64,000 bases of DNA, from positions 806,001 to 870,000 of the forward strand of contig NZ_LT629793.1 in NCBI RefSeq assembly GCF_900105735.1, read 5' to 3'. The notes under the pieces are model-generated. The model made no database searches, was not told where the DNA came from, and saw only the letters and a list, made by a program, of their open reading frames with translations. The DNA is from Pseudomonas yamanorum (GTDB lineage: Bacteria > Pseudomonadota > Gammaproteobacteria > Pseudomonadales > Pseudomonadaceae). Every line of letters starts with the position of its first letter. Position 1 is the stretch's first letter. Both the position numbers and the translations under genes were made by a program. Positions 3,217 to 23,938 of this stretch are shown piece by piece.

Positions 3217-4023
3217 ATGCCCGATATTCATCCCTACGAAAACACCCCTCGCGACGTGGTCGTGACCGCTATCGACTATGCCGACGGCCAGCTGTTCCCT
3301 GACCACGCGCACCCGCGCGGCCAGTTTGCGTATGCCAGCCGGGGTGTCATCACGGTCTACACCGCTACCGGTAACTGGGTCGTGCCGCCCCGCCGCGCGA
3401 TCTGGGTGCCGCCGCATGTGTCCCACGCCATGCTGATGCGCGGGCCGGTGACGATGCTCAACACCTACATCCGCCCGCAGGCGGCGCGGCGGCTGGAGTT
3501 GCCGCAAGCGTGCCAGGTGTTGGACGTCTCGCCGCTGCTCGGGCAGTTACTGGAGAAGGCCGTGGAGGTGCCTGCGCGTTACGCGATGGGTGGCCGCGAT
3601 AGCTATTTGATGGGCTTGCTGCTGCACGAGATCGCCCAGATGCCGGTGCTGCCGCTCAGTGCACCGTTGCCTGTCGAGCCGCGCTTGGCGAAGGCTTGCG
3701 AAGAGTTTCTGGCTGGGCCTTCGTTGGAGGTCAGCATTGATGCCATGGCGCTCGGCGCGGGGATGAGCCGCCGGACGTTTACCCGGCAGTTTCGTCAGGC
3801 CACGGGTATCAGTTATCTGCAGTGGCGCCAGCAAGCCTGCCTGCTGGCGGGGATTGTGCGGCTGGGCAATGGGGAACCGGTGACCAGGGTGGCGCTGGAT
3901 TTGGGGTATAGCAGCCCGAGTGCGTTTGCGACGGTGTTCAAGCGTGTATTGGGTGAGGTGCCGAGTCGGTATTTCACCAGGGAGTTGCGGGGGGGTGGGT
4001 CGGGGTACATATCCGTTGTTTAG
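3217..4023 (+). CDS. AraC-family regulator with N-terminal cupin
   Basis: Transcription factor of 268 aa: an N-terminal cupin-like effector domain (FPDHAHPRGQFAYASRGVITVYT..GNWVVPPRRAIWVPPHVSHAM) and a C-terminal double HTH (LEVSIDAMALGAGMSRRTFTRQFRQATGISYLQWRQQACLL and VTRVALDLGYSSPSAFATVFKRVLGEVPSRYF). It resembles NimR/YeaM-like regulators and is divergent from the EamA exporter. The last residues GYISVV and the TAG stop are encoded by the left edge of long repeat A (from 4005), so the native C-terminus may have been altered when the repeat arrived; the tail is beyond the second HTH and probably dispensable. Confidence 0.88.
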   Translation: MPDIHPYENTPRDVVVTAIDYADGQLFPDHAHPRGQFAYASRGVITVYTATGNWVVPPRRAIWVPPHVSHAMLMRGPVTMLNTYIRPQAARRLELPQACQVLDVSPLLGQLLEKAVEVPARYAMGGRDSYLMGLLLHEIAQMPVLPLSAPLPVEPRLAKACEEFLAGPSLEVSIDAMALGAGMSRRTFTRQFRQATGISYLQWRQQACLLAGIVRLGNGEPVTRVALDLGYSSPSAFATVFKRVLGEVPSRYFTRELRGGGSGYISVV

Positions 4024-4054
4024 GTAACGGCCGCTTATGGTTCCGCTCTTACAG

Positions 4055-5520
4055 CCATCCCTTTCAAGGTCTGCGTTTAAAAGTCCGTTTAAGGCCATGT
4101 TTAAGTACGTTTATCCGACTTGGCCGCCTTAAGCACCCTAGCTGTTGAGACATGCGCCCGTGCTGCCTTACCTTCCAGCCACTCCTTGGGCTTGGCTACT
4201 TTGGGGCCACGAGGGCTTTTTGCTACGGACTTAGGTTTGATCATCCTTGCCAGGGCCAGCAATCGCTCTGCCAGCCCTTGCGGAGTCTTTTCAAGAGGGA
4301 AATTTTCCGCAGGCAATGCGATCTGCAAGCCTTGATAATCACTGCGAACATGCACCGCCAAATGGAAAATCGAAACCTGCCAACCCTCTGGCTGCGTTTC
4401 GCGGTGCGCCTGCTCAACGCTACGCTTGAGAACCGATAAAACGTTGTAAGCCAGGACCGCCGAGGCAAAGCCCAATAGCGCGGCTTTCGGGCTGCCAAGG
4501 CCTGTAATTTCACTGTCCAGTACCGACTCAAGGCGCTGAAACATTCCCTCGATACTCCAGCGATGACGGTATAAATCGGCTATCTGCCGGGCACCGATGG
4601 TGTCGGGCAAATTGCTCCAGAACCACATCACCAAATCACCTGAGTCATTCGCCGTTTGCAGGCTCAACTCAACACGTCGCCAGCGGCGGCCACCCTTCAC
4701 TTCGATGATTTGTTCGCGAACGGTTCCGCTATCGACCGTCCCTGAGTCTTGCCACTCACTTTCCTGGACCAGGCGTGGATGCTTACTGGGTTGGCGAACG
4801 ATGAACGAAGCCCCCGTGTCCTCGCAGGCTTGCAGGATGGGCAGCGTGCAATAGAGCCGGTCAGCCATCCACAACTGGCCCGCGCATGCGCGGGCCAGCA
4901 GCGGTAAAACACTGACTCGCTCACTGGCGTAGGCATCTTCCCACGGCTGAAGATCAACGACTAAATCCAGATCCGGATCGTAGGCAACTACTGAAAATCC
5001 TGGGCGCGCTGCGCCGCGCTCATTGCGCAGAGCGCCTAGACGTTTTTCAGTGGCCGGCAAGTGGTTGCCATCCACAATACGCAACTGCCAGCCGGGCAGG
5101 ATCGATGAATGGCCGAGCGTTTCGACGGTTGGTATCAAACGCTCGGCACTGCCCGAAATGAGGGCGCGAAGCAGCTCGGGTTCGGTTCGCTTGATCTTGT
5201 CATAGAGTGCCGAAACACTGACCGAAAGGCCCTCCATCTTGCGCGCCGCCGCGTGCAACGACGGCCTCAAGCCCAATGAAACAAGGGACATCAGCTCAAC
5301 AACGGTTGAAAACAAAAGCTCACGTGAGTACTGCCGTTGGCGGTGATCATCGAACACCTTGTCAACCCAAGCGGCATCTACTGCCTGCTCTAATATCAAC
5401 TTGGTCATGACGCTGGCCGGAGCCTGTTTTTCAAACCGTTCTAAAACCTTTTCCCACATAGTTTCGTCGTCCTGACTGGATTGGTTAGGGGATTTTAAAC
5501 CAAGACCTTGAAAGGGATGG
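4055..5520 (-). mobile_element. IS4-family insertion sequence (1466 bp)
   Basis: Complete insertion sequence with 18-bp perfect terminal inverted repeats (CCATCCCTTTCAAGGTCT at 4055-4072 and its complement ending at 5520) and a 9-bp target duplication CTCTTACAG at 4046-4054 and 5521-5529. One transposase gene fills the element. The target is the loop of the outer hairpin (CCGCT-CTTAC-AGCGG) of long palindrome A; the uninterrupted sequence is preserved in copies B and C, which confirms the boundaries exactly. Confidence 0.95.
4101..5459 (-). CDS. IS4-family DDE transposase
   Basis: Transposase of 452 aa. DDE residues can be placed: first D in IVDGNHL, second D in WMADRLYC, and the IS4-type YREK-like signature YRHRWSIEGMFQRLE supplying the catalytic Glu. 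The N-terminal region (FEKQAPASVMTKLILEQAVDAAWVDKVF) and LRPSLHAAARKM are typical of IS4-family members of this size. The frame opens further upstream in the flanking repeat, but the ATG at 5459 lies inside the element with an AGGA about 14 bases before it. No frameshift or internal stop, so the element may still be active. Confidence 0.93.
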   Translation of the reverse strand: MWEKVLERFEKQAPASVMTKLILEQAVDAAWVDKVFDDHRQRQYSRELLFSTVVELMSLVSLGLRPSLHAAARKMEGLSVSVSALYDKIKRTEPELLRALISGSAERLIPTVETLGHSSILPGWQLRIVDGNHLPATEKRLGALRNERGAARPGFSVVAYDPDLDLVVDLQPWEDAYASERVSVLPLLARACAGQLWMADRLYCTLPILQACEDTGASFIVRQPSKHPRLVQESEWQDSGTVDSGTVREQIIEVKGGRRWRRVELSLQTANDSGDLVMWFWSNLPDTIGARQIADLYRHRWSIEGMFQRLESVLDSEITGLGSPKAALLGFASAVLAYNVLSVLKRSVEQAHRETQPEGWQVSIFHLAVHVRSDYQGLQIALPAENFPLEKTPQGLAERLLALARMIKPKSVAKSPRGPKVAKPKEWLEGKAARAHVSTARVLKAAKSDKRT

Positions 5521-5835
5521 CTCTTACAGCGGCTCACTTTTGAACAGCGCAAAAGTAAGCAAAACGCTCTTGCCCCACCACTCGGCACCTCGCCTAGGCT
5601 CGGTGTGCCCTCACTCCGGCTTTGGACCGTGGGCCGCCGTCATGGGCCATCCTTGGCCCAGGACGGCTAACCTGGCGTCCTGCCAGGCTACCCACGCTCC
5701 AAAGCCTGCGTTCGGCCAGCGTGGTTTAACGGGGCGCCTAAGATCAAAAGCAGATCAAGAGCACAGCGGCCTACCGGCCGGCTTGAGTGTTAAAAGCCAG
5801 ATCAAAAGCTACAGCGAAAGCAGAGCTGCTTTTCT

Positions 5836-5920
5836 GTGGGAGCTGGCTTGCCTGCGATGCAGACACCTCGGTTTTTCAGATACACCGAGGCGATGCCATC
5901 GCAGGCAAGCCAGCTCCCAC
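5836..5920. repeat. REPIN at the centre of copy A
   Basis: Two inverted REP sequences (GTGGGAGCTGGCTTGCCTGCGATG and its complement) separated by a short region with a second small inverted repeat. It forms the apex of long palindrome A. Its flanks (CAGAGCTGCTTTTCT on the left, ATTTGACCGTGCCCAC on the right) are swapped relative to copies B and C. Confidence 0.92.
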
Positions 5921-6302
5921 ATTTGACCGTGCCCACTTTTGATTTGGCTTTTGCTTCACCACACTCAAGCCGGCCGGTAGGCCGCTGTGCTGTTGCTTTT
6001 GATCTTGATCTGACTGCCCCGATAAGCCCAAGGCCGAACGCAGGTATTGCGGAGCGGGTAAACCGGCAGGACGCCGGTTTACCCGCGCCGGGCCATGGAT
6101 GGCCCGTCGCGGCGGCCCGCGGAGCAGTGCCGGAGTGAGGGAACACCGAGCCTAAGCGAGGTGCCGACAGGCGGGCAGAGCCCTTTGCTTACTTTGGGCT
6201 GGGCCGGCATTCCGGCTTTTCCAAAAGTGAGCCGCTGTAAGAGCGGAACCATAAGTAGCCGTGACCGAAGAAGCGGATATGTACTCCCTCCCCAAAAAAA
6301 CC

Positions 6303-7658
6303 TCACACCAGCCGCTTAATCTGCTTATGCCGCCAAACCAACCGGTAATACGCCGTCTGCAACCCCAGCATCGCCAGATACGTCACCGGAAACGCCATCC
6401 ACACCCCTTCCAACCCAAACCGCGCATTCAGCAGATAAGCCACCGGCAACTCCACCCCCAACACGCAAACGATCGAAATCCCCACTGGCACCAGCACCAC
6501 GCCGCTGGCCCGCATGATCCCGCCCACCACCGCCTGGAAGCCAAACACCAAAATGCTCCAGAGCATGATATGCAGCAGGTGCTCAGCCTTGACCCGCGCA
6601 TCCACGTCGGTAATGAACAACCCCAACAACCAGTGCGACAACCCATACCCCAACACAATCAACCCACCCGTCAGGCACAGGTTGATCAAAATTCCCGTAC
6701 GCAGGATCGGCCCAATCCGCTCCAGCCGCCCTGCCCCGATCGCCTGCGCCCCCAGAATCGACGCGGTGATGGCAATCGACAACGCCGGAAACTGCACATA
6801 GTTGACGATCTGCGTTACCGCCCCATACGCCGCCGTCGCCTGGGAACCATGGCTGTTGACCAGCGCCAGAATCACCAGCTCCGACAACGACAACACCACC
6901 ATCTGCAACCCGGTCGGCAGACCAATACGCAGCACCTTGCCCAAAATCACCCGGTCCAGCCGCAACGCCGCCATCAACTCGCGATCCGGCGCCATCACGT
7001 GGTTTTTATGGCGCAGGCGCAGCACCAGAAACGTCATCGCCAGGGCGTTACCCACCAGCCCTGCCAGTACCGCGCTCTGAATGCCCATCGGCGGCAAACC
7101 CAGCCAGCCCTTGATCAGCGCCGGGGTCAGCACCAGGCCCACGGCGGTCGAGACCATCAGCGCCAGCAACGGCGACACCGTGTCACTCACGCCTCGCAGC
7201 AGTTGGGTGAACAGGATGAACACCAGCAACAGCGGCATGATCAGCATCATCATCTGCGCGTAACCCACCGCGTCATCCAGCACATCCACCGGTGTGCCCA
7301 GGGCCTGCATCGCCGGCCGTGCAAACACGCTGCCCAGCACCGCCGCGATCACCCCGATCAGGGCGCCGAGGGTCAGGGTGGCGCCGGTGATCGACTTGAC
7401 CATCGAGGTTTCCTGAGCGCCCCACGCCTGGCCAATCAGCACCGAAGCGCCCGCCCCCAGGCCGATCACCAGGGCGATAAAGAAAAACACGATGGGGAAC
7501 ATCCCCGACACCGCCGCCAACGCCTGGGTACCGAGCATCTGCCCGACGTAGATACCGTTCAGCGTGCCGGAAAAGCTCTGGAGGAAATTGGACAGCACCA
7601 TGGGTGCCAGAAAGATCAGGTAGATCTGCCACAACGGTCGTTGCTGGGTGACTTCCAT
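6303..7658 (-). CDS. MATE-family efflux transporter
   Basis: Inner-membrane multidrug/toxin extrusion (MATE, NorM/DinF-like) antiporter, 451 aa with about twelve hydrophobic segments in two six-helix halves. The first half starts WQIYLIFLAPMVLSNFLQSFSGTLNGIYVGQMLG and contains GLGAGASVLIGQAWGA; the second half starts LRIGLPTGLQMVVLSLSELVIL. Expected to exchange cationic drugs for Na+ or H+; substrate unknown. It is 22 bp downstream of the DUF2239 gene and may be at the end of that transcript. The 3' end abuts long palindrome A. Confidence 0.92.
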   Translation of the reverse strand: MEVTQQRPLWQIYLIFLAPMVLSNFLQSFSGTLNGIYVGQMLGTQALAAVSGMFPIVFFFIALVIGLGAGASVLIGQAWGAQETSMVKSITGATLTLGALIGVIAAVLGSVFARPAMQALGTPVDVLDDAVGYAQMMMLIMPLLLVFILFTQLLRGVSDTVSPLLALMVSTAVGLVLTPALIKGWLGLPPMGIQSAVLAGLVGNALAMTFLVLRLRHKNHVMAPDRELMAALRLDRVILGKVLRIGLPTGLQMVVLSLSELVILALVNSHGSQATAAYGAVTQIVNYVQFPALSIAITASILGAQAIGAGRLERIGPILRTGILINLCLTGGLIVLGYGLSHWLLGLFITDVDARVKAEHLLHIMLWSILVFGFQAVVGGIMRASGVVLVPVGISIVCVLGVELPVAYLLNARFGLEGVWMAFPVTYLAMLGLQTAYYRLVWRHKQIKRLV

Positions 7659-7680
7659 GAAGGTTCGGATCTCAATGCAA

Positions 7681-8244
7681 TTAGGCAGGGAAAGCGTTGC
7701 GTGATAACCAGGCCAGGTACAACTTCACATCCACTGGCCAGTGCGCAATCTTGTTGGAAAAGTCGGCGCCGTCCTGGGCAAACAACGCCCGCGAGGCTTC
7801 TTCGAAACCCGGCAGGTCGCCGCCGAGTGCGCTCATGAAACGATAGCTGGATTCCTTGGCCTGGCGTCGCTCATCGTGCTCGGCATGGGCGTTGCGTGCT
7901 TCATCCACCAGCCGGCGCAAGGCCGCCGAGGCGCCACCGCGTTGTTGCCCCAGCCACTCCCAATGCCGTGGCAGCAGGGTCACTTCACGGGCGACCACGC
8001 CCAGCTTCGGTCGGCCTACGGTAGGTGACGCAGGCACTTCGGCTTCGGTCACCGTGGCTGCCGGTTGCTGGGGCGCATAACCCGCGGGCCAGGGATAGTC
8101 GACTTGAACGCCGCTGGTGTCATCGAACACCAGCAAGCTGCCGGTCGACAGGTCGAGACTTTTCAGGTTTTTTGCGACGTCGGCATAAGAGCCGGCGGCC
8201 ACGCGTTGGTGGCCAAGGAAGGCGGTGCAGTGTGATGCGCTCAT
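7681..8244 (-). CDS. DUF2239 family protein
   Basis: Protein of 187 aa recognised as DUF2239: N-terminal CTAFLGHQRVAAGSYADVAKNLKSLD, then LLVFDDTSGVQVDYPW and a conserved centre GRPKLGVVAREVTLLPRHWEWLGQQRGGASAALRRLVDEAR, whose pattern recalls a ribbon-helix-helix-like or helical DNA/protein-binding segment. No signal peptide or membrane helix. Function unknown. Two direct CCGGGTAAAA repeats lie just upstream of the ATG on the coding strand (8248-8276), suggesting its own regulated promoter although amiB ends only 50 bp upstream. Length and composition fit neighbouring genes. Confidence 0.82.
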   Translation of the reverse strand: MSASHCTAFLGHQRVAAGSYADVAKNLKSLDLSTGSLLVFDDTSGVQVDYPWPAGYAPQQPAATVTEAEVPASPTVGRPKLGVVAREVTLLPRHWEWLGQQRGGASAALRRLVDEARNAHAEHDERRQAKESSYRFMSALGGDLPGFEEASRALFAQDGADFSNKIAHWPVDVKLYLAWLSRNAFPA

Positions 8245-8247
8245 GGT

Positions 8248-8276
8248 TTTTACCCGGAATATATTGTTTTACCCGG
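8248..8276 (-). promoter_or_regulatory. Direct repeats CCGGGTAAAA upstream of the DUF2239 gene
   Basis: Two exact copies of TTTTACCCGG (+ strand) at 8248-8257 and 8267-8276, 19 bp apart, separated by an AT-rich AATATATTG. They sit immediately 5' of the DUF2239 start. The spacing of about two helical turns suits a dimeric regulator or a repeated operator. The regulator is unknown. Confidence 0.4.
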
Positions 8277-8294
8277 GTCATATTAGCTTGAAAT

Positions 8295-9251
8295 TTATTT
8301 GTTGCAAGTCGCTTGTCGCGAAACCACCAAATGATTGCTGATGGCGGTCGCGTCCATGGCGCCCACGCCCGGATCACCCAACAGGCACTCGGCAATCGCC
8401 GGCTCAAGTTCCACCCGCAACCGGCGGCCCAAGGCGCGGGCACCAAACCGTACGTCATGGTCGCGGCACAGCCATGCCCGTGCCGATTCATCCAGCACCA
8501 GTGACCGCTGCTGCGTCGCCAGGCGTTGATTGAGTTTGCCGAGTTCCACCTCAAGCAGCGCTTCAAGCCACTGATGGTCGATGGGCTCGAACACCAGGAC
8601 ACGGTCGATACGATTGAGAAACTCCGGCTCAAAGTGACTGTGCAAGGCGTCCTCCAACACCGCCGCCTCCCCGCGCACCAACCAGCGCAACGGAGCAAAA
8701 CGCTGTCGATGGCGGCGCGCCTGTTGCGCGCCGATATTGCTGGTCATGAAGATCAGGCTATTGCGAAAGTCCAGCGTGCGAGCGCCACCCGCCAACGTCA
8801 GTTGGCCGTTTTCAAGGATGCCCAGCAGGCTGCGCACCACTTCCTGGCTGGCCTTTTCCAACTCGTCGAACAACACGATGCCGGGGCGACTGTAGCTGCC
8901 CTGGATCAGCTCGCTGTTGAACAGGCTGATGCCTTCCTTGCTGCCGACGTAACCCGGTGGTGCACCGGTCAGGGCGGCGGCGTAATGCTCCTGGGCCAGG
9001 GTGTGCATGTCGATACGGCAGAACCCGTCGGTGCGCCCGTGCAAGGCCAGGGCCAGCAGCCGGACAATTTCTGTCTTGCCGACCCCGGTCGGCCCCATGA
9101 ACAGGTTGACGCTCAACGGCCGCTCGCGCTCGCCGATATCGGCCTTGACCACCTTGAGCAAGCCTTCCACCTGGGCCAGGGCCGCGTCCTGGCCAACGAT
9201 GCGGCTGCGCAGCAAGGCCATGACCTGAGCCGGTTCAAAGGTAAACCGCAT
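8295..9251 (-). CDS. amiB: AAA+ ATPase, AmiB/ClpB-type, partner of the amidase
   Basis: Single AAA+ module of 318 aa resembling the second ATPase domain of ClpA/ClpB. Walker A is GPTGVGKT (about residues 53-60), Walker B IVLFDELEKA, sensor 1 FMTSN, the arginine-finger region FLNRIDRVLVFEPI and sensor 2 GARALGRRL. The pore loop GYVGSKEG is present. It lacks the Clp N-domain, first ATPase ring and middle coiled coil. Position 3 bp after amiE and the P. aeruginosa amiEBCRS precedent (AmiB, a chaperone-like ATPase) point to a dedicated unfoldase or assembly factor for the amidase. No amiC, amiR or amiS is present here. Confidence 0.8.
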   Translation of the reverse strand: MRFTFEPAQVMALLRSRIVGQDAALAQVEGLLKVVKADIGERERPLSVNLFMGPTGVGKTEIVRLLALALHGRTDGFCRIDMHTLAQEHYAAALTGAPPGYVGSKEGISLFNSELIQGSYSRPGIVLFDELEKASQEVVRSLLGILENGQLTLAGGARTLDFRNSLIFMTSNIGAQQARRHRQRFAPLRWLVRGEAAVLEDALHSHFEPEFLNRIDRVLVFEPIDHQWLEALLEVELGKLNQRLATQQRSLVLDESARAWLCRDHDVRFGARALGRRLRVELEPAIAECLLGDPGVGAMDATAISNHLVVSRQATCNK

Positions 9252-9254
9252 GCC

Positions 9255-10663: not shown

Positions 10664-11893
10664 CTACAGGTCCGGTGCGATGGGCAGGTCGATGCTGCCG
10701 TCGAGGAATTGGGTCGGGCCGTTGGCGTTGGGGTTGATGTCGAACTCGAAGATTTCAGTCGGCAGCCACAACGTCGCGCAGGCGTTAGGGATGTCCACCA
10801 CGCCGCTGATATGCCCCTGCACCGGCGCCGAGCCGAGCAACGCATAACCCTGGGCCGGCGAGTAGCCGAACTTGGTCAGGTAGTTGATCGCATTCAGGCA
10901 GGCCTGGCGGTAAGCGACATTGACGTCCAGGTAGTGCTGCTGCCCCTGTTCGTCGACGGAGATGCCTTCGAAGATCAGGTAGTTCTTGTAGTTCGGGGTG
11001 ATCGGGCTTGGCTTGAACACCGGGTTCTTGATCCCGTACTTGGCCATGCCGCCCTTGATCAGCTCGACCTTCATGTGCACCCAGCCGGCCATTTCGATGG
11101 CGCCGCAAAAAGTGATTTCGCCGTCGCCCTGGCTGAAGTGCAAGTCCCCCACCGACAGGCCGGCGCCGTTGACGTAGACCGGGAAATAGATCTTCGAGCC
11201 GCGGGACAGATCCTTGATATCGCAGTTGCCGCCATGCTCACGGGGCGGCACGGTGCGGGCACCGGTGGCGGCGGCGTCGTCACGGGCCGCGCCCTTGAGT
11301 TTGCCCATGTGTGCGGTGGCGGCCAGCGGGGCGTTGGCCAGGGGTGGGACGCGGGTTGGGTTGGTGTCGATCAGTTCCTGTTCGCGGCGGTTCCAGTCGG
11401 CGAGCATCACCGGGTCGGGCAAGCACCCGATCAGGCCCGGGTGGATCAGGCCGGCGAAGTTCACGCCCGGGATGTGCCGGGAGCTGGTGAACATGCCCTT
11501 GAAGTCCCAGATGGCTTTTTGCGCGCTGGGGAAGTGATCGGTGAGGAAGCCGCCGCCGTTCTGGCGCGAGAAGAAGCCGTTGAAGCCCCACTGGGAGTCG
11601 GCTTTGGCGCCGATGTCGAGCAGGTCGACCACGAGCAAGTCGCCGGGTTCGGCGCCGTGTACGCCCACCGGGCCGGAGAGGTAGTGCACGGTGGAGAGGT
11701 CGACGTCGCGCACGTCGCTGGCGTCGTCGTTGTTCTTGATAGCGCCGGCGGTCCAGTCGTAGGTCTCGAGGATGAAGTCATCGCCGGGTTTGACCCAGCA
11801 GGCCATCGGGATGTCCGGGTGCCAACGGTTGTGGATTTGCTCGTTTTCGGTGACGGGTTGGTTGAGGTCGACTTTGATCAGGGTGTCGGTCAT
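10664..11893 (-). CDS. fmdA: Formamidase
   Basis: Cytoplasmic formamidase (acetamidase/formamidase family), hydrolysing formamide to formate and ammonia. The 409-aa product has MTDTLIKVDLNQPVTENEQIHNRWHPDIPM at the N-terminus, an ETYDWTAGAIKNND segment, and the long conserved VHYLSGPVGVHGAEPGDLLVVDLLDIG and HPGLIGCLPDP blocks typical of the family. The reading frame extends further upstream, but the ATG at 11893 has a GGGAG site and matches the family N-terminus. First gene of the fmdA-fmdB-amiE-amiB unit. Formamide could come from histidine breakdown or from cyanide hydration; neither is shown here. Confidence 0.95.
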   Translation of the reverse strand: MTDTLIKVDLNQPVTENEQIHNRWHPDIPMACWVKPGDDFILETYDWTAGAIKNNDDASDVRDVDLSTVHYLSGPVGVHGAEPGDLLVVDLLDIGAKADSQWGFNGFFSRQNGGGFLTDHFPSAQKAIWDFKGMFTSSRHIPGVNFAGLIHPGLIGCLPDPVMLADWNRREQELIDTNPTRVPPLANAPLAATAHMGKLKGAARDDAAATGARTVPPREHGGNCDIKDLSRGSKIYFPVYVNGAGLSVGDLHFSQGDGEITFCGAIEMAGWVHMKVELIKGGMAKYGIKNPVFKPSPITPNYKNYLIFEGISVDEQGQQHYLDVNVAYRQACLNAINYLTKFGYSPAQGYALLGSAPVQGHISGVVDIPNACATLWLPTEIFEFDINPNANGPTQFLDGSIDLPIAPDL

Positions 11894-11995
11894 CGAGGTG
11901 CTCCCGGAGGTGGCTTGGCTGTCGGGGGCAGTCTCACGGGGATGGGGTTGGGCGGGGAATACGTTGGATGACGTATGCGGCTTTGGGGTGGGGGG

Positions 11996-12817
11996 CATAT
12001 CCGTTATTTAGGTAACGGCCGCCTATGGTTCCGCTCTTACAGCGGCTCACTTTTGAACAGCGCAAAAGTAAGCAAAACGCTCTTGCCCCACCACTCGGCA
12101 CCTCGCCTAGGCTCGGTGTGCCCTCACTCCGGCTTTGGACCGTGGGCCGCCGCGATGGGCCATCCTTGGCCCAGCGCGGCTAACCCGGCGTCCTGCCGGG
12201 TTACCCACGCTCCAAAGCCTGCGTTCGGCCAGCGTGGTTTAACGGGGCGCCTAAGATCAAAATCAGATCAAGAGCACAGCGGCCTCCCGGCCGGCTTGAG
12301 TGTGATGAAGCAAAAGCCAAATCAAAAGCTAAAGTGGGCACGGTCAAATGTGGGAGCTGGCTTGCCTGCGATGGCATCACCTCGGTGTATCTGAAGAACC
12401 GAGGTGTCTGCATCGCAGGCAAGCCAGCTCCCACAGAAAAGCAGCTCTGCTTTCGCTTTGGTCTTTGCTTTTGCTCTTCAACACTCAAGCCGGCCGGGAG
12501 GCCGCTGTGCTCTGCTTTTGATCTGCTTTTGATTTTGATCTGCGGGCCCCGTTAACCACGATGGCCGCAAGTAGGCACGGTGGAGCGGGTAAATCGGCAA
12601 GGATGCCGATTTAGCCGCGCCGGGCCATGGATGGCCCGTCGCGGCGACCCGCGGAATCGGGCCGGAGTGCGGGCATGCCGAGCCTAAGCGAGGCACCGAG
12701 TGGTGGGGCAAAGACCTTTTGGTTACTTTTGGCTGGGCCGGCATTCCGGGCGTTTGCCAAAAGTGACCCGCTGTAAGAGCGGAACCATAAGTCGCCGTTA
12801 CCTAAATAACGGATATG
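11996..12817. repeat. Long composite palindrome, copy B
   Basis: Uninterrupted 822-bp copy of the element described at 4005-6284, between the 5' side of the fmdA operon and the 3' end of an MFS gene. Outer ends are CATATCCGTTATTTAGG and CCTAAATAACGGATATG. The arm hairpin reads AACCCGGC-GTCCT-GCCGGGTT on the left and AATCGGC-AAGGAT-GCCGATT on the right: paired changes relative to copies A and C. The REPIN core lies at 12350-12434. The stretch 11894-11995 before it would hold the fmdA promoter; no clear promoter was seen there. Confidence 0.92.
12350..12434. repeat. REPIN at the centre of copy B
   Basis: Inverted pair of GTGGGAGCTGGCTTGCCTGCGATG-type REPs. Flanked on the left by GGGCACGGTCAAAT and on the right by AGAAAAGCAGCTCTGC, which is the opposite orientation to copy A and the same as copy C. 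Confidence 0.92.
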
Positions 12818-12841
12818 TACCCCGCTCCCGCTCCCCCCATC

Positions 12842-13972
12842 TCATGCTAAAACCCTGGCCCGCCAGCAAAACACCGCACTGACCGCAATCGCCGCCCCCG
12901 CCACACCAAACACCCAAGGCGCCGACGCCACCGGCAACAACAACCCCGCCAGCAAAGGCCCAAGCCCCGCGCCCACATCCCGCCACACCGCATTCGACGC
13001 CAACGCCGAAACCCGCATCGCCCCCGGATTACGCTCCGCCACCAACGTCGTCACCAGCGGCAACTGCAACGCCCGCAACACCAACACCGCCGCCGCACCG
13101 ACAATCACCCAGTGACTGCCAAACGCCCCCAACGCCAACGCACTGAGAAACGAAAACAGCAGCAACATCGAAGTAGCACCAAACTGCTGCGCCGCGCGTC
13201 CCCCTAACGGACTCAGAAGCAACTCCGAAACATATCGCAGCGCCATCAACCCACCGGCAATCAATACCGCATTCCCACCCAACAGCTTCTGCGCCTGAAT
13301 CGACAGACCAAAGATAAACAGCCCATCCAGCGCCACCCCTTCGATAAACGACCAGGTCGCCACACTGTCAGGCAACTTGAACCGCCGCCCCGGCGTGCCA
13401 TGCAAATTGTGACCCGCAGTCGGCAACCCCCGCGCCATCCACAACCCCACCAGGCAACACACCGCCAGAATCCAGAAGATCGGCCGCGGCCCCACCTGTA
13501 ACGTCAGCCACCCACCCAACGGCAAGGCCAGCATCGGCCCCAGGGCAATCAACGCCCGTGACCGCCCCGCCCGACGCGCTGCACCCAGCGGTTCAGAAGT
13601 GGCCAATACCTGAGTGGAAAGGTTCAACGCCGCAAAACACAGGCCCCAGATCAACCGCAGGCCAAGCAAGGCAGCAAACCCGGACAACATCGAGTTGCCG
13701 AGTGCACACACCGCCGCCGCGCCGGCGGCGATGGAGCACGTCAGCCGATCACCGTTGCGGGCGTAGAAATTCAGTACATGCTTGTAGCCGAAGATCCGCA
13801 CCAGGCGGTTGGCCGCCAGCAGCACCCCGGCCTGGGCCAAGGTGATTCCGAACGCCTGGGACTCCATCGGCAGTACCAGGTACAGCAACACGTCACTGGG
13901 CAGGCACAGGCCAAGGGTCAGCGCGGCACGGCGGGAGTGGGAATCAGCACTGCGTTGGGCCAGATCAGACAT
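12842..13972 (-). CDS. MFS transporter
   Basis: Major facilitator superfamily protein of 376 aa with roughly eleven to twelve hydrophobic segments. Family features: the PMESQAFGITLAQAGVLLAANRLVRIFG block in helices 1-2 and a central basic loop (LPTAGHNLHGTPGRRFKLPD) before the second half begins WSFIEGVALDGLFIFGL. The N-terminus (MSDLAQRSADSHSRRAAL) is cytoplasmic. Substrate not recognisable. It is a separate gene from the downstream-facing neighbour at 14048, with 75 bp between them and the same strand, so co-transcription is possible. Copy B of the long palindrome follows its 3' end after 24 bp. Confidence 0.85.
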   Translation of the reverse strand: MSDLAQRSADSHSRRAALTLGLCLPSDVLLYLVLPMESQAFGITLAQAGVLLAANRLVRIFGYKHVLNFYARNGDRLTCSIAAGAAAVCALGNSMLSGFAALLGLRLIWGLCFAALNLSTQVLATSEPLGAARRAGRSRALIALGPMLALPLGGWLTLQVGPRPIFWILAVCCLVGLWMARGLPTAGHNLHGTPGRRFKLPDSVATWSFIEGVALDGLFIFGLSIQAQKLLGGNAVLIAGGLMALRYVSELLLSPLGGRAAQQFGATSMLLLFSFLSALALGAFGSHWVIVGAAAVLVLRALQLPLVTTLVAERNPGAMRVSALASNAVWRDVGAGLGPLLAGLLLPVASAPWVFGVAGAAIAVSAVFCWRARVLA

Positions 13973-18051: not shown

Positions 18052-18075
18052 GGGTGTTACTCCTCGGGGTGGGGT

Positions 18076-18843
18076 TTATTTGATGACGGATGCAGCGTCT
18101 TCGATGACCTTCGCCACAGCCTCGGGCTGGGAGATGTACACCGAGTGGCTGGCCTTGATTTCAGTGACTTTTGAGCCGGCGCGCTTGTACATCCAGCGCT
18201 GCAGATCGGGGCTCAGGGCACGGTCTTCGGTGGACACCACGGCGTAGGTCGGTTTCTTGTGCCAGGCCGCGGCCCACACGGTGCCACCGAACAAAGCGGT
18301 GGTGGCCGGCACCTGGGAGGCGGCCATGAAGTCGGTGCGGTTGGTGGTCAGGTCGGCAGCAAAGTCGGCGTTGAACTTGGTGCGGTCAAAGAACAGATGC
18401 CCGTCGCGGGTCTGCATCACGTCATTGCTCGGCGCCGGCATCGAAGACAGCAGTTGGCTCATGTTTTCGCCGACTTCCGGTTGCAGGGCCGAGACATAGA
18501 CCATCGACTTGACCTTGTCGCGGTCACCGGCAATCGAGATCACCCCACCGCCGGAGCTGTGCCCCACCAGCACCACCGGGCCGACTTGCTGCTCCAGCAC
18601 TTCGCGGGCCTCGGCCACGTCGGCGGCGAGGCTTTCATGGCCCTGATGCACCACGGTGACCTTGTAGCCCTTGTGAATCAGGATGTCGTGCACCACTCGC
18701 CAGCCGGAGCCGTCGACAAAGGAACCGGGTACGATCACCACGCTTTTACCGGTGCCCGGCTGGGGCTTGGCTGCATCGGCGGCCGAGGCCACTAACGGTG
18801 CAGCGAGTGCCATGGCGATCGCCAGGGAAGAAAGAATACGCAT
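18076..18843 (-). CDS. Exported alpha/beta hydrolase
   Basis: Periplasmic alpha/beta hydrolase of 255 aa. A signal peptide (MRILSSLAIAMALAAPLVASA) precedes the fold, beginning KSVVIVPGSFVDGSGWRVVHDIL. The catalytic residues are all visible: Ser in VGHSSGGG, Asp in STEDRALS and His in ASHSVY. This is the EstC-like small hydrolase family often acting on esters. It starts at an ATG with a GGAG site (18843); four extra upstream codons are possible. It sits between doxX and bufA2 in a same-strand series with small gaps (45 and 24 bp), so it is in the bufferin operon, where such a gene is not part of the standard set. Confidence 0.88.
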   Translation of the reverse strand: MRILSSLAIAMALAAPLVASAADAAKPQPGTGKSVVIVPGSFVDGSGWRVVHDILIHKGYKVTVVHQGHESLAADVAEAREVLEQQVGPVVLVGHSSGGGVISIAGDRDKVKSMVYVSALQPEVGENMSQLLSSMPAPSNDVMQTRDGHLFFDRTKFNADFAADLTTNRTDFMAASQVPATTALFGGTVWAAAWHKKPTYAVVSTEDRALSPDLQRWMYKRAGSKVTEIKASHSVYISQPEAVAKVIEDAASVIK

Positions 18844-18888
18844 GCGACTCTCCACAGGCCTTGGGGCCTGATCATTGTTGTGAAAGGG

Positions 18889-19317
18889 TTAACGGCGTTG
18901 GCCGGACAACACGCGGTCCAGTGACCAGGCCCCGCCGCCATACGCCAGCAGCGGCAGCAACAGCCCGGCCCAGGTCAGGTGGGTCGGCCAGGCATCGGGG
19001 TACACGAACACCTCGATCACCAGGGTCATGCCCAACAGCGCGGCGGCCGCCGGGCGGGTCAGCAGGCCCAGCACCAGCAACAGCGGGAACAGATGCTCGG
19101 CGTAGGTCGCCAGGTGTGCCGCCCAGTCCGGCGGCACCAACGGCAAGGCGTATTCCGAGCGAAACAAGGTGTAGGTCGACGGCTTGAGTTGCAGAAAACC
19201 GGTTACCTTGGTGCGGCCCGAGAGGAAAAACACCGAAGCGATACCGACACGAGCCACCAGCAACAGCAGCGCCTCAGGCAGCACGCGCTTGAGCACCGCA
19301 GGGGCCAGGGCAATCAT
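18889..19317 (-). CDS. DoxX-family membrane protein
   Basis: Four-helix inner-membrane protein of 142 aa, DoxX family: [106 protein letters not shown]. The frame is open further upstream, but the ATG at 19317 overlaps the bufA1 stop (ATGA). DoxX proteins commonly accompany DUF2282/BufA1 precursors; a role in quinone- or thiol-linked redox chemistry is proposed for the family but unproven here. Confidence 0.88.
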
Positions 19318-19586
19318 GGTTGTTCCGTCAGGCTGCCGAAGCCTTTGGGGGTTTTGATCTGGGTGCACGTGCCTTTGTCCACCAGCACCCAGGCGTTGCC
19401 CTGGTAATCCGCCTTGGCGGTACCGGCGCAGGAAGTACCGGCACCGGCGGCGCAATCGTTGGCACCGGCGAGGGACACGCCGAAGCATTTTTCCTGAGGC
19501 TTGGCATCCTCGGCATGGGCGGTGGCGGCGAAGGCACCGAGGGACAGTGCGAGGGTGGCGGCAAGGGCCGCGTAGTGGCGCTTCAT
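19314..19586 (-). CDS. bufA1: Bufferin precursor, BufA1 class (DUF2282)
   Basis: Exported precursor of 90 aa with the DUF2282 signature. After the signal peptide ([25 protein letters not shown]) come [32 protein letters not shown] and [15 protein letters not shown]: four cysteines in the BufA1 spacing. The start has a perfect AGGAG site. It is the first gene of the operon bufA1-doxX-hydrolase-bufA2-bufB-bufC-hydrolase fragment. Known relatives are copper-induced and carry thiooxazoles made by BufB/BufC. Only one BufB/BufC pair is present, so either it modifies both precursors or one is unmodified. Confidence 0.92.
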
Positions 19587-20162
19587 GGTTGAATCTCCTG
19601 GCTTGACTGAATGTGGCCAGGGCGCTTGTGCGGTGCGTGACCACTTGCGCCATCTGGTAGACAGATTTAAAGCCAGGCGTGTATCCCGTCTGTGTCGCGT
19701 TTCCTCCTGCTAATCATGCCGCTGTATCAGATGGGTGCTGATACACAGTCTGATACACAGCCAAAAAAACCGCGCCAAACCACCGCCATTTTATTCGGCA
19801 TCCCGAACGACACAATTAGAAATATTCGCCTTTCCGAACACTCCCCTCTCACCGCCTCCGACGACCTTAAAAATCACCATAAATTTCATACGGTTGTTGT
19901 CATCTTTGTTACATGCCAACTGGCATACATTCTGCTACATCAGGTTTTCTAGTAATAAAATGTTTCTAAATTGAAACAGTCTCATCGCCTGAACCCCAAC
20001 GGCCCCGCGCCTTATAACAACGTCCATGCCCCAAAGGAGGGCGGCAACTCTCACCTTTTTGATCGACTTCAACTCTCCAAGCCTGCTGCCGCACGTAAGC
20101 ACCCAAAAGGGCGAATGGCCTGATCGCCAATAACAAGCCCGACTACAAAAAAGGACAAATTG
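19587..20162. promoter_or_regulatory. Divergent control region between bufA1 and the large regulator
   Basis: A 576-bp AT-richer intergenic stretch with several dyads: TGTATCAG-(7 nt)-CTGATACA near 19726-19748 followed by a second direct CTGATACACAG copy; ATGCCA-AC-TGGCAT at 19913-19926; and TGTTTC-TAAATT-GAAACA at 19961-19978. The left part must contain the bufferin promoter and the right part the promoter of the 20163 gene. No convincing -35/-10 pair was assigned. No RNA gene was recognised. Confidence 0.5.
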
Positions 20163-22988
20163 ATGAGTTCGAGCAAATACCCCGCAGTGTCCTTCACGGA
20201 CCTTGTCCCCCAGGCCCCGGACCACACCGAGAATGCTATCGGTTTTGGCCCCTTTCTCTTGTTGGCGCGCCAGCATGTATTGCTGCGCAACGGCGAGCCG
20301 GTGACCCTCGGCAGCCGCGCCTTGTACTTGCTGATCGCCCTCGCCAGCCGGGCTGGCGAGTTGCTGGAAAAGTCCGAACTGATCTCCTTCGCCTGGCCCA
20401 AGGTGGTGGTGGAGGAATGCAACCTGCGCGCTCAGATCGTTGCCCTGCGCCGGGCGTTGGGGGATGACGGCAACTTCAGCTACATCGTCACCGTGCCGGG
20501 CCGGGGTTACCGGTTTGTCGCGCCGGTGACAATGCAGGCGGTGAGTGACGGCGCAATGACCCAGGCCCTGCTGCCCGCCCCAACCGTGGAGGCACCGAAC
20601 CTGCAACCGCCGCCAGGCACGGTGATTGGCCGTGAACAGCTGATCCTGAGCCTCGCTGACCAGCTCCTGAGCCAGCGCTTCCTGACCATCACCGGCCCCG
20701 GCGGCATCGGCAAGACCACGGTCGCCCTGGCCGTGGCGCAACTGCTGCAGGGCCGCTTTCACCAGGGCATGTGCTTCGTCGACCTGGCCCCCGCCACCAG
20801 CGGCCAATGGGTGGCCGGCATGCTCGCCAACGCCCTGGGCATCCAGAGCGTGAGTGACGACCCCTTGCAAAGCGTGGCCTCGATGCTCGCCAACAGCCCG
20901 CTGCTGCTGGTGCTCGACAACTGCGAACACGTGCTGCAAGCCACCGCCGACGCCGTCGAAGTGCTGCTGCGCTGCGCGCCCCAGTGTTGCGTGCTGACCA
21001 CCAGCCGCGAGCCGCTGCGGGCCGAAGGCGAACGGGTGCACGACCTGGCACCGCTGCTGGTGCCGGACGAAGACTTAAGCTTGAGTGCCGAGCAAGCCAT
21101 GGCCTGGTCGGGCATCGCGTTGTTCATCGAACGGGTCAAGGCCCTCGATCCTGGCTTCGTGTTCAAGGACACTGACGTCGCCGCCGCCAGCGCCATCTGC
21201 CGCAAGCTCGACAGCAATGCCCTGGCCATCGAAATTGCCGCGGCGCGGGTGCGCACCTTCGGCATCCAGGACCTGGTGGGTTTGCTCGACGGCAGTTTCC
21301 GCCTGCAAATGACTGGCCGGCGCACCGCCCTCGCCCGCCATCGTTCACTGAGCGCGACCCTGGACTGGACCTACTCGATGCTCACCGGCGACGAACAGGC
21401 CATGTTGCGCCAACTGGCAGTGTTCACCGGTTCGTTCACCCTGGATGCAGTCAAAGCCATGACCGCCAGCAGCGCCCTCGATGCCCGCAACGCCCTGCCC
21501 CTGCTGGAAAGCCTGATGGACAAGTCGCTGCTGATCGCTGGTGAATCCCAGTTGCTCAAGCGCTACCGCCTGCTGGAAACCACCCGCGCCTACGCCCTGG
21601 AGAAACTCAACGAACACGGCGAAGCCGATGCTACCCGCCAGCGTCATGCACGGTATGCCCTCGAGGTTTTGCAGGAAGCCGGGCAGACCCTCGACAGTCT
21701 TTCCCCGGAGATTTGGGTCGGCCTCTACGGCCCGGAAATCAACACCATCCGCGCCGCACTGGAGTGGGCTTTTTCAGCCTCGGGCGACCTGCCCACCGGC
21801 ATCGAACTGACCCTCGGCGGCGTGCCGTTGTGGCTGCGCCTGTCGCTGGTCAGCGAGTGCCGTACCTGGGTCGACAAAGGCCTGGCCAGCGCCGACACCA
21901 CCCCGCTGCCGCTGCGCCAGCGCATGCTGTTGCAAACCGCCCTGGCCAGTGTGCTGATGCTCACCTACGGCACCGGCGGGCCGATGCGCGAAGCCTGGCG
22001 CCAGGTGCGTGAAGACGCCCGCGACCTGGGCGATGCCGAGCACAAACTGCGGGCGCTGTGGGGCCTGTGGAGTGACCGCTGCGGCTGCAACCAGTACGCC
22101 GAAGCGCTGGAACTGGCCGAGCGCTACATCAGCCTGAGCCACAGCGGCAACCAGCAACTGCTGGGTAAACGCATGCGTGCGGTGGCGTTGTTTCACATGG
22201 GCGACCTGGCCGGCGCCCGACAGAATATCGACGAGGCGCTGGGGTCACCGTCGGCTCCGCGTTCGCACATTATCGACGTGCATTTCGACCAGCGCATCGC
22301 CGCTCGCTGCCTCAAGGCGAAGGTGCAATTGCTGGAAGGCGATGTTGACCCGGCGCTACGCCTGATCGGCAGTTGCGTCGATGAAGCCATCACCCTCGAT
22401 CACCCCGCGACCCTCTGGTACACCCTGTGCCTGGGGGCGATTCCCCTGGCGCTGTTGGCGTCCAACCTGCCCAAGGTGCGTTATTACCTGGGCTTGCTGC
22501 AGGGCAGCACCACGCAACAAGACCTGCATATCTGGCGCCAGTTTCGGCTGTGTTTCGAGAGCATCCTGCTGATTCGCCAGGGCTCGCCTGAGGAAGGTGT
22601 GCCGCTGTTGGGTGAGGCGTTGCATCACTTGAGTGGGCAGGGAGACAGCCAGCTGTATAGCTTGCTGCGCTGTGAATACGCCTTGGGCCTGGCGCGACTG
22701 GGGCTGGAGAAGCTGGCGCTGGAGGTGTTGGAAGACACCTTGCAATTGGCGCTGGGGCGGCATGAGCATTGGTTCGTGCCGCAGATGTTGCGGATCAAGG
22801 CACAGCTTATTTTGCGCCAGGCCCAGTATGGGTCGGTGGACAAGGCCAAGGTGTTGCTGCGCCAGGCGTGGGTGGATGCGCAATTGGCCGGGGCGCACTT
22901 TTGGCGGGCGCAGATTGCCAGTGACCTGGCCAGGTTGCAGGAGCCGAAGATGCGGATTGCTTCGTTGCCCCGGTTTCAGCATCGGTAG
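20163..22988 (+). CDS. Large winged-helix regulator with NB-ARC-like ATPase and TPR-type C-terminus
   Basis: Cytoplasmic transcription factor of 941 aa. An OmpR/CadC-type winged helix at the N-terminus (FGPFLLLARQHVLLRNGEPVTLGSRALYLLIALASRAGELLEKSELISFAWP..VVEECNLRAQIVALRRALGDD..IVTVPGRGYRF) is followed by an NTPase with Walker A GPGGIGKTT, Walker B LLLVLDNCEHV and LTTSREPL sensor, then GLxLLDG..RHRSLSATLDWTYSML as in AfsR/SARP-like and STAND regulators, and a long helical repeat tail. ATG 20163 is preceded by AAGGA. It reads away from the bufferin operon across a dyad-rich region and is the best candidate regulator of it. The inducing signal is unknown. Confidence 0.87.
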   Translation: MSSSKYPAVSFTDLVPQAPDHTENAIGFGPFLLLARQHVLLRNGEPVTLGSRALYLLIALASRAGELLEKSELISFAWPKVVVEECNLRAQIVALRRALGDDGNFSYIVTVPGRGYRFVAPVTMQAVSDGAMTQALLPAPTVEAPNLQPPPGTVIGREQLILSLADQLLSQRFLTITGPGGIGKTTVALAVAQLLQGRFHQGMCFVDLAPATSGQWVAGMLANALGIQSVSDDPLQSVASMLANSPLLLVLDNCEHVLQATADAVEVLLRCAPQCCVLTTSREPLRAEGERVHDLAPLLVPDEDLSLSAEQAMAWSGIALFIERVKALDPGFVFKDTDVAAASAICRKLDSNALAIEIAAARVRTFGIQDLVGLLDGSFRLQMTGRRTALARHRSLSATLDWTYSMLTGDEQAMLRQLAVFTGSFTLDAVKAMTASSALDARNALPLLESLMDKSLLIAGESQLLKRYRLLETTRAYALEKLNEHGEADATRQRHARYALEVLQEAGQTLDSLSPEIWVGLYGPEINTIRAALEWAFSASGDLPTGIELTLGGVPLWLRLSLVSECRTWVDKGLASADTTPLPLRQRMLLQTALASVLMLTYGTGGPMREAWRQVREDARDLGDAEHKLRALWGLWSDRCGCNQYAEALELAERYISLSHSGNQQLLGKRMRAVALFHMGDLAGARQNIDEALGSPSAPRSHIIDVHFDQRIAARCLKAKVQLLEGDVDPALRLIGSCVDEAITLDHPATLWYTLCLGAIPLALLASNLPKVRYYLGLLQGSTTQQDLHIWRQFRLCFESILLIRQGSPEEGVPLLGEALHHLSGQGDSQLYSLLRCEYALGLARLGLEKLALEVLEDTLQLALGRHEHWFVPQMLRIKAQLILRQAQYGSVDKAKVLLRQAWVDAQLAGAHFWRAQIASDLARLQEPKMRIASLPRFQHR

Positions 22989-23444
22989 GTGATCGCTATT
23001 CGGTACGCACTTGCGTGTTCTCGGGTGTGGGCAATGTTATGGGGCAGGATTTCTGATCGGGTCGGGTCGGGTCGGGTACATATCCGTTTCTTCGGTAACG
23101 GCCGCTATTGGTTCCGCTCTTACAGCGGCTCACTTTTGAAAAGCGCAAAAGTAAGCAAAACGCTCTTGCCCCACCACTCGGCACCTCGCTTAGGCTCGGT
23201 GTGCCCTCACTCCGGCTTTGGACCGTGGGCCGCCGTCATGGGCCATCCCTGGCCCAGGACGGCTAACCTGGCGTCCTGCCAGGTTACCCACGCTCCAAAG
23301 CCTGCGTTCGGCCAGCGTGGTTTAACGGGGCGCCTAAGATCAAAATCAAAAGCAGATCAAAAGCAAGAGCACAGCGGCCTACCGGCCGGCTTGAGTGTTG
23401 AAGAGCAAAAGCAAAAGCCAAATCAAAAGCTGGCACGGTCAAAT

Positions 23445-23529
23445 GTGGGAGCTGGCTTGCCTGCGATGGCATCACCTGGGTCTGCCTGATACACCGAGGT
23501 GTCTGCATCGCAGGCAAGCCAGCTCCCAC
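23445..23529. repeat. REPIN at the centre of copy C
   Basis: Inverted REP pair of the GTGGGAGCTGGCTTGCCTGCGATG type, with GGCACGGTCAAAT on the left and AGAAAAGCAGAGCTGC on the right. Confidence 0.92.
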
Positions 23530-23620
23530 AGAAAAGCAGAGCTGCATCAGCTTCAGATTTGGCTTTCGCTCTGGATCTTGCCTTTGCTTTTAACACTCAA
23601 GCCGGCCGGGAGGCCGCTGT

Positions 23621-23662
23621 GCTTTTGCTTTTGCTTTTGCTTTTGCTTTTGCTTTTGCTTTT
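23621..23662. repeat. Hexanucleotide tandem repeat (GCTTTT)7
   Basis: Seven uninterrupted GCTTTT units inside copy C. The equivalent positions of copies A and B have one or two units mixed with GATCTT/GATCT, so this is a local expansion and a likely length-variable site. Confidence 0.9.
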
Positions 23663-23938
23663 GATCTTGATCTGACTGCCCCAATAAGCCCGAGGCCGAA
23701 CGCAGGCAGTGCGGAGCGGGTAAACCGGCAGGACGCCGGTTTAGCCGCGCCGGGCCATGGATGGCCCGTCGCGGCGGCCCGCGGAGCAATGCCGGAGTGA
23801 GGGAACACCGAGCCTAGGCGAGGTGCCGACAGGCGGGGCAGAGCCCTTTGCTTACTTTGGGGCTTTTCCAAAGTGAGCCGCTGTAAGAGCGGAACCATAG
23901 GTGGCCGTTACCTAAATAACGGATATGTACTCAACCCC

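Follow-up and report, generated by a model that had tools for sequence, protein, structure and literature searches.

REPIN-centred long palindromes with a two-sided composition footprint in Pseudomonas yamanorum, a candidate family of natural bacterial fragile sites

Palindromic units in the window and in the chromosome

The stretch analysed, here called the window, comprises 64,000 nucleotides of Pseudomonas yamanorum (positions 806001-870000 of contig NZ_LT629793.1, assembly GCF_900105735.1; contig C1 of genome G000 in our numbering). It was found to contain three copies, A, B and C, of a long palindromic unit with a REPIN at its centre, each flanked on both sides by DNA of skewed composition (Table 1). 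The unit contained two inverted arms of about 350 bp, terminal inverted repeats and ends reading G.GKRYATATCCGTT, the termini following the consensus G-N-G-[TG]-[AG]-[CT]-ATATCCGTT...GGTAACGGC; in copy A the nucleotides ATATCC begin at window position 4009. Inverted blocks of 71-147 bp with 81-89% complementarity (I6, I8, I12, I18 and I24) were found within copies B and C, among the 25 of 33 pairs listed, none of which lies inside copy A. The unit is a long inverted repeat able to fold, and when 44 units were folded on both strands the left-to-right strand was found to be more stable in 41 as RNA and in 34 as DNA, a gap of 1-2% that was not used for any conclusion.

In the single-contig chromosome of 7,087,425 bases (7.09 Mb), 72 arm-bearing loci of the unit were fetched. 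A reading of the window made earlier from its letters alone (the sequence-only reading) had described three large units with these ends, arms and REPIN centre; all three are present, as members of a family far larger than that. Copy B as query (831 bp) matched all 40 places that were scored out of 605 candidates, with 82-100% identity and in most cases across most of the query, and the end motif with at most three mismatches gave 138 matches against none for the reversed pattern, so that the signal is far beyond chance. The length of 66 units was 730-860 bp in 44, more than 1.5 kb in 19 and shorter in three. The set of 67 units used below has two recognised termini and leaves out L042, L051, L087, L090 and L112, in which one terminus is missing; L043 merges two places and is left out of some counts. 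Copy B was matched in nine of nine chosen genomes of other species.

The core, identified as a REPIN by its motif, was found in 67 of 72 loci (one of only 29 nt) and, by inspection, was flipped relative to the arms in four. It has the makings of a REPIN in its two inverted REP-type repeats, the hairpin they form and its many copies. The sequence-only reading had placed the unit beyond a REPIN/RAYT model, and this is borne out by the arms with conserved ends of their own, since a REPIN alone does not explain the whole; the arms and the core go together here, the opposite of arms never inherited with a core, and single arms occur in other species. Four open reading frames (ORFs) lying wholly or mostly inside units gave no Pfam match at E 0.01, in keeping with that reading's view that no credible protein is encoded. 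It had also put two of the three copies between convergent genes, and by the rough gene calls of this analysis, on which all gene context here depends, these are copies A and C, copy B lying between tandem genes.

Besides copy A, which carries an insertion sequence (IS), eight interrupted units were inspected, and each insert was found to contain one long ORF; a small number of ORF lengths and of insertion sites recur among them. The insert ORFs scanned, those of copy A and two others, were of the DDE_Tnp_1, IS110 and integrase-core (IS481-like, weak) types. Several IS types use the units as landing pads, the sites of insertion recurring (window 4055-5520; L057 3080-4191; L075 3749-5053). The stop codon of the ORF at 3217-4023 lies inside the end of copy A (4005-4023), so that the unit provides the stop of the gene.

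Table 1. Palindromic units, hairpin pairs, REPIN cores and composition footprints of the window
Feature	Position	Strand	Details
Copy A, palindromic unit with IS inside (L048)	4005..6284	+	L-arm left end 4005-4054, L-arm remainder from 5530, right arm to 6284; REPIN core inverted
IS within copy A	4055..5520	-	DDE_Tnp_1 transposase; 9-bp target duplication CTCTTACAG (4046-4054 / 5521-5529)
TwoAYGGAY hairpin pair, copy A left arm	5611..5713	-	outward strand, 44.4 bits
TwoAYGGAY-like hairpin pair, copy A right arm	6056..6118	+	37.5 bits, under cut-off 43
REPIN core, copy A	5837..5919	.	orientation opposite to that in B and C
Copy B, unit without insert, inversion breakpoint relative to sister genome G316	11996..12817	+	
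TwoAYGGAY hairpin pair, copy B left arm	12124..12226	-	45.6 bits
TwoAYGGAY hairpin pair, copy B right arm	12587..12650	+	46.6 bits; loops CAAGGATG, CATGGATG
REPIN core, copy B	12349..12434	.	
Copy C, unit without insert	23076..23930	+	convergent genes either side
TwoAYGGAY hairpin pair, copy C left arm	23207..23309	-	45.4 bits
TwoAYGGAY hairpin pair, copy C right arm	23718..23780	+	45.8 bits
REPIN core, copy C	23444..23529	.	
Composition footprint, copy A left	3500..4004	+	top strand G/T-rich; bounds approximate
Composition footprint, copy A right	6285..7300	-	bottom strand G/T-rich; bounds approximate
Composition footprint, copy B left	11200..11995	+	bounds approximate
Composition footprint, copy B right	12818..13600	-	bounds approximate; third-position skew of gene 0.78
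Composition footprint, copy C left	22400..23075	+	bounds approximate
Composition footprint, copy C right	23931..24800	-	bounds approximate; third-position skew of gene 0.51

Composition footprint of the flanks

A composition scar reaching about 1 kb was observed directly on both sides of the 67 units measured, with the unit in the middle. On the strand that reads 5′ to 3′ towards the unit, C was scarce and G and T were abundant, whatever the direction of the neighbouring gene. Read outward from either end, C exceeded G and A exceeded T, with a peak at the end of the unit and no excess left by about 1.3 kb. In the 134 flanks of the 67 units, the outward (C-G)/(C+G) was 0.54 at 0-30 bp, followed by 0.25 at 200-300, 0.19 at 400-600, 0.07 at 800-1000 and about 0 past 1.3 kb. 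C exceeded G over the first 60 nt in all 134 flanks and at 78 nt in 98-99% of them, and the (C-G) per base over 78 nt was 0.25 in flanks at gene tails and 0.22 at gene heads, against 0.014 at control gene 3′ ends and 0.002 at mid-gene controls (203 each). Flanks at gene tails (88) and at gene heads (46) had much the same footprint, which was nearly symmetrical once the genome-wide strand skew was allowed for. In the 64 kb of the window, with the units themselves removed, the three units were the top three convergent-skew peaks.

A fourth peak in the window, half as strong, was found at an arm-less REPIN (53354-53440), which may be what is left of an earlier unit or may itself have a weak effect. 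Two convergent-skew peaks in a 518-kb sample of this genome, at about 18620 of L351 and about 11850 of L354, had no arm and no REPIN; these are candidate ghosts or have another cause. A role of Chi was considered and set aside, because the enrichment of inward Chi-like motifs near the units comes from the G/T bias of the flanks.

At the three loci compared, the footprint goes with the presence of the unit, and most alleles that lack the unit are unskewed. The last 600 nt of cobQ, next to a unit, had a third-position skew of 0.64 in G000, 0.60 in the sister genome G316 and 0.59 in L135, the contig of which ends 49 bp into the unit. The other 79 cobQ loci, all titled Pseudomonas except one Paucimonas metagenome-assembled genome, had a mean skew of 0.04 (standard deviation 0.13), and the highest of them (L141, 0.54) bears a partial unit. 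With third positions read in the frame of our gene and indels uncorrected, the gene to the right of copy B had a skew of 0.46-0.81 in six alleles with an arm upstream and of 0.10-0.35 in 24 without, and the gene to the right of copy C of 0.46-0.51 in three alleles with an arm and of at most 0.26 in 27 without, with no overlap at either locus. Genomes G048 and G059 were skewed at B (0.46 and 0.52), where remnants were found, and low at C (0.26 and 0.21), where no arm was found. Of the changes on the stem of the clade with the unit, read on the inward strand, C>T and C>G made up 22 of 24 within 1 kb in cobQ, where six near outgroups were used, and six of six at C. At the cobQ-cobU junction (L136-L145), REPINs were present in several other Pseudomonas and unit end fragments in L138 and L141.

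Replichore polarity, the sister genome and the arm hairpins

The polarity of the arms was found to follow the replichore in 59 of 67 units (p = 1e-10; 58 of 66 without L043), being + in 23 of the 26 units below 3.6 Mb and - in 36 of the 41 above. It was kept in each gene context (convergent 23/28, tandem 17/18 and 13/14, divergent 5/6) and was independent of gene direction (11/32 tandem). With a switch in GC skew between 3.40 and 3.55 Mb, the origin was taken at about 3.5 Mb; a site near 7.07 Mb is dif-like by its motif (at most three mismatches, 400 kb searched). Coordinate 0 was rejected as the origin since the skew switch and the dif-like site argue otherwise, and DnaA and DnaN fragments gave no match in the first 20 kb. 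With the origin at about 3.5 Mb, the fork reaches the R arm first in the 59 conforming units. The units were depleted near the origin, with two of 72 in 2.4-4.6 Mb (p = 2e-9). A gene could be called on either side of 65 units (L043 left out), and 28 of these lay between convergent genes, against seven of 92 control pairs.

The sister genome G316, a complete relative with flanks about 95% identical (90-98%), was found to contain 88 matches to RF01731, the Rfam family of the arm hairpins described below, in 51 loci. In the comparison for age and REARRANGEMENT, 46 of these loci matched neighbourhoods of our units and five matched none; among the 46, 43 matched on both sides, one (L288) on one side and two (L289 and L309) joined the flanks of two units. 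L309 joins both left flanks and L289 both right flanks, which identifies the two breakpoints of an inversion between G000 and G316 as copy B and the unit at 5.963 Mb. A second inversion, involving the regions at about 6.24 Mb and 0.47-0.75 Mb of G000, is implied by the synteny with G316.

Twenty-six of our units had no RF01731 partner in G316, and 24 of their sites were located there by tag; the tags of L043 and L053 were not found and that of L059 matched over 47 nt only. At the 13 of these 24 sites that were read, G316 had mostly remnants of ends or of inner arms, or a whole or partial REPIN, and at L098 other DNA. The remnants L326, L334 and L345 contained a different REPIN type between inner arm sequences; the central REPIN seems to be exchangeable. 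In the paired table of 22 sites, to which L051 and L087 do not belong, the mean footprint was kept in G316, with 0.23 against 0.24 at 100-300 bp, and was lower next to the site (0.33 against 0.40), as would be expected after loss of the unit. The footprint persists at the partnerless sites, and therefore these are likely to be sites of lost units. The family looks old and largely vertically inherited rather than actively moving, and recent insertion polymorphism is not supported by the positional stability and the ghost footprints between the two species, the five loci found only in G316 not being included.

The arms were found to contain a pair of TwoAYGGAY (RF01731) hairpins with GGA loops, read outward from the centre. 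This genome gave 130 matches, 122 of them over the cut-off, and 14 control genomes gave none; the gathering cut-off (43) was passed by five of the six arms of the window, and matches were present in 59 of 144 relatives with 18 candidates scored per genome. The loop alignment drew on this genome, its sister and further species and had 126 distinct rows (127 for loop 1). Hairpin 2 contained the loop A-N-GGA-Y, with GGA in 125 of 126 rows and a gap in one, the preceding base being free (T, A, G or C): ATGGAT in 82, AAGGAT in 21, AGGGAT in 15, AGGGAC in 5, and ACGGAT, A-GGAC and a gap in one each. Hairpin 1 contained AGGAC in 69 of 127 rows and mostly A-N-GGA-T in the rest, with three rows lacking GGA. 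Pairing was kept in 991 of the 992 cells of hairpin 1 and in 1479 of the 1624 cells of hairpin 2, with the deficit mostly in one C-T column. Stem changes in these small hairpins were two-sided in 224 cells and one-sided in 20 (10 at one mispaired column), the cells being sequences and not events, with many rows related. G-U intermediates were few, and wobbles numbered 7 in the sense against 15 in the antisense direction, with no sense excess; the two-sided changes are as hairpin-templated copying would give.

The consensus bound by CsrA is CANGGAYG, and three CsrA paralogues are encoded in the genome. The arms might serve as Rsm/CsrA-binding RNA, multi-copy decoys whose read-through or outward transcripts would titrate RsmA/RsmE through the two GGA-loop hairpins of each arm; we regard this as possible though on the whole doubtful, and as compatible with the other readings. 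It is favoured by the RF01731 scores, by a hairpin 2 loop that fits A-N-GGA-Y on stems that vary pairwise, by the presence of both hairpins in the minimum-energy folds of the copy B arms (z -5.4 and -7.9), and by a published prediction that TwoAYGGAY binds CsrA (Gardner and Eldai, PMC4333381). It is disfavoured by hairpin 1, the loop of which is mostly the shorter AGGAC without the N, by a GGA count in the outward arms only slightly above shuffles (7.2 against 6.3), by the search of copy B for a sigma-70-like promoter, which found none, and by the footprint, which it leaves unexplained; the two-sided changes, with few G-U pairs and no sense wobble excess, fit DNA hairpin copying as well. Of the structured RNA considered in the sequence-only reading, the conserved GGA loops and the scores above the cut-off thus stand, whereas the lack of a promoter-like site in copy B and the equal fit of the stem changes to DNA hairpin templating speak against it. 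Once read-through RNA is made, the outward-strand hairpin pairs could provide extra Rsm/CsrA binding as a separate, predicted function. Matches to micro-RNA families of Rfam scored under their cut-offs and were set aside as hairpin coincidences.

Fragile sites, rival explanations and known systems

As a rule, long palindromes are considered too unstable to be maintained in bacterial chromosomes. Our judgement is evenly balanced between accepting and doubting that the units are old, long, imperfect palindromes behaving as natural fragile sites, which would be repeatedly broken or opened and so expose 3′-ended flanks. On both sides, the C-poor strand is the one whose 3′ end a break at the unit would expose. 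The wider proposal is that bacterial chromosomes contain families of natural fragile sites, here about 70 REPIN-centred palindromes per genome with a two-sided cytosine-loss scar of about 1 kb, about a hundred neighbouring genes biased, crossing points of inversions between the replichores and one orientation to replication; it is put forward tentatively, its likelihood falling just short of even. The sequence-only reading had noted neither the footprint in the flanks nor the polarity by replichore nor the breakpoint of the inversion.

The palindrome would at some rate extrude or fold and then be cut, or its ends might be nicked. An SbcCD-type hairpin nuclease would be the obvious candidate cutter; SbcD is encoded (TIGR00619, 168 bits), a common gene that 13 of 14 controls match too. 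The 5′ strands would be resected, and cytosine damage would gather in the exposed 3′-ended flanks until these are mended from the sister chromosome; inversions could arise when another copy is now and then used for the repair, and arms could be lost by mis-repair. End-specific nicking would yield the same footprint and may suit the single-arm copies of other species better.

Several points weigh against the fragile-site reading. The breaks, the nuclease and the deamination are what we infer from composition and comparison, on which everything rests. Resection by RecBCD should proceed as far as Chi, at a distance of several kb, and the length of the footprint was found to be independent of Chi with the two octamers tried; C>G is not known to have a standard bacterial explanation. 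A weak version of the footprint was found at 21 arm-free REPINs in 518 kb (0.12 at 100-200 bp and 0.05 at 400-600), and no skew at 100-500 bp was found beside a few units (L047 left -0.07, L055 left 0.04, L077 right 0.00 and L084 right 0.01). In other species the footprint was shorter, with 0.24 at 0-100 bp, 0.11 at 100-400 and 0.00 at 400-800, some loci being counted twice, and the single-arm copy L035 contained it on the outer-end side, which could mean that the ends and not the palindrome are the source. Some cobQ alleles with no detectable arm were skewed (L157 0.44, L145 0.30 and L137 0.28), as ghosts or from another cause, the element-bearing alleles at each locus are mostly of one clade, and the uncorrected frame at B and C belongs here too. 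The composition stands out more than the substitution spectrum: at 1000-1500 in cobQ six of seven stem changes were still C>T or C>G, with no sharp limit, and in the unit-less control L136 8 of 11 changes in 0-600 were, the other singly tested outgroups being mixed. At B no more than 13 of 26 stem changes were of these two types (7 of 16 with G150 added).

Among the rival explanations, replication or repair synthesis converging on the unit (fork stalling, restart or convergent repair forks) without frequent double-strand breaks would make the G/T-rich strand the leading strand of short inward forks. The sign of the footprint is indeed the leading-strand sign, given the skew switch and the dif-like site, the replichore polarity suggests that replication matters to the unit, and convergent synthesis is named in the abstract of PMC4752480 as the accurate outcome of break repair. 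A stalled fork is one-sided, and fork stalling is argued against because the footprint is nearly symmetrical; convergent repair synthesis presupposes a two-ended break, and we consider this explanation unlikely. We give little credence to a transcriptional cause, in which polymerase stalling from both sides would expose the non-template strand, or C-rich and G-poor outward flanks would be selected as Rho entry sites, the unit insulating its neighbours. The excess of units between convergent genes and the outward flanks, C-rich and G-poor like Rho sites with C exceeding G in nearly all at 78 nt, would suit it. Gene transcription is argued against because head and tail flanks are alike, transcription leaving the unit at the heads, and a footprint that runs about 1 kb into genes, including the third codon positions tested, is too far-reaching and too synonymous for a terminator. 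A bidirectional transcription barrier, one of the suggestions of the sequence-only reading, would suit the Rho-like outward flanks, but a composition of this reach is better read as mutation.

The history of the units bears on two further explanations. A target preference as the source of the footprint, in which the units or their forerunners would have inserted next to flanks that were skewed beforehand, is very improbable: the G/T-rich gene end at L084 is also present in the sister genome, where only a REPIN is found, but most unit-less outgroup alleles of the same genes are unskewed, and the sister shows ghosts of lost units, of which L084 may be one. Present-day mobility as a non-autonomous element, driven by a RAYT or other transposase and with insertion into one fork strand to give the polarity, would account for the inverted ends, the high copy number, the REPIN centre, the 59 of 67 units that follow the replichore, and cobQ-cobU, where the unit is held in this clade and no arm was found in 78 of 80 other loci fetched. 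One Y1 transposase match is present in the genome (PF01797, 28.6 bits, cut-off 23), a match that does not itself establish a connection to the unit. As present activity, the non-autonomous mobile unit suggested in the sequence-only reading fares poorly, and we consider it improbable: most units hold their place between the two species (46 of 51 sister loci), and those absent in the sister look lost there and not newly gained here. No target-site duplication was noticed on inspection of the ends, which was not a systematic test, and no autonomous parent with the same ends was met, though no dedicated search was made. Two of 72,556 plasmid records and two of 50,697 phages contained the unit, which is thus nearly absent from both, and spread by these was rejected on that account; a phage match adjoins a transposase with integrase-core and HTH_21 domains.

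If the fragile-site reading is true, a persistent family of about 70 copies with a mutational footprint would preserve a record of past breakage and repair in the sequence, and an intergenic repeat would steer the evolution of neighbouring genes. Natural bacterial fragile sites could become readable from sequence alone. Two separate literatures, on REPINs and on the TwoAYGGAY/CsrA motif, meet in one element. No description of such a footprint was found in the literature searched, subscription papers not being covered; the sources, available in part, were PMC2718517, PMC4333381, PMC2864571, PMC3390384, PMC4752480, PMC8049555 and PMC7615360.

The unit resembles the REPIN/RAYT system (Bertels and Rainey 2011; Nunvar 2010; Loper 2012) in its REPIN-like hairpin apex, its intergenic position and its depletion near the origin, REPs being typically absent near the origin according to the part of Loper 2012 consulted. 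It differs in its long arms with ends and hairpins of their own, its exchangeable central REPIN types and the weak footprint of REPIN-only sites. The repeats R200 (320 bp) and R178 (101 bp) of P. fluorescens (Silby 2009) would suit one arm and one core in size and genus, a likeness by description and not by sequence, and a convergent-gene bias was reported there for the larger repeat families. In the accessible part of that paper the table gives R200 no inverted-repeat structure, and no polarity or footprint is mentioned. TwoAYGGAY, described in the text available as a candidate RNA from the human gut, from gammaproteobacteria and from Clostridiales, with CsrA binding predicted in Clostridia, is shared through arm hairpins over the gathering score on the outward strand; unlike the family as described, it is present here twice, back to back, within a dispersed palindrome.

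Two systems of chromosome breakage are comparable. The 246-bp interrupted palindrome in lacZ of E. coli, cut by SbcCD (Leach group, PMC4752480, in part), is likewise a long chromosomal inverted repeat, for which a two-ended break and rearrangement are predicted; it is engineered, whereas the units here occur naturally, are old and number about 70 in a genome, with breakage that is presumed. Human meiotic break hotspots contain strand-opposed C>N and A>N changes in the flanking 2 kb, the exposed strand to the left of the break being the forward one, and C>G is ascribed to REV1 (PMC7615360, in the part available). Unlike the units, the hotspots arise from programmed eukaryotic breaks with enzymes that are not shared, REV1 not being known from bacteria; their footprint is of the same sign and scale as that of the units.

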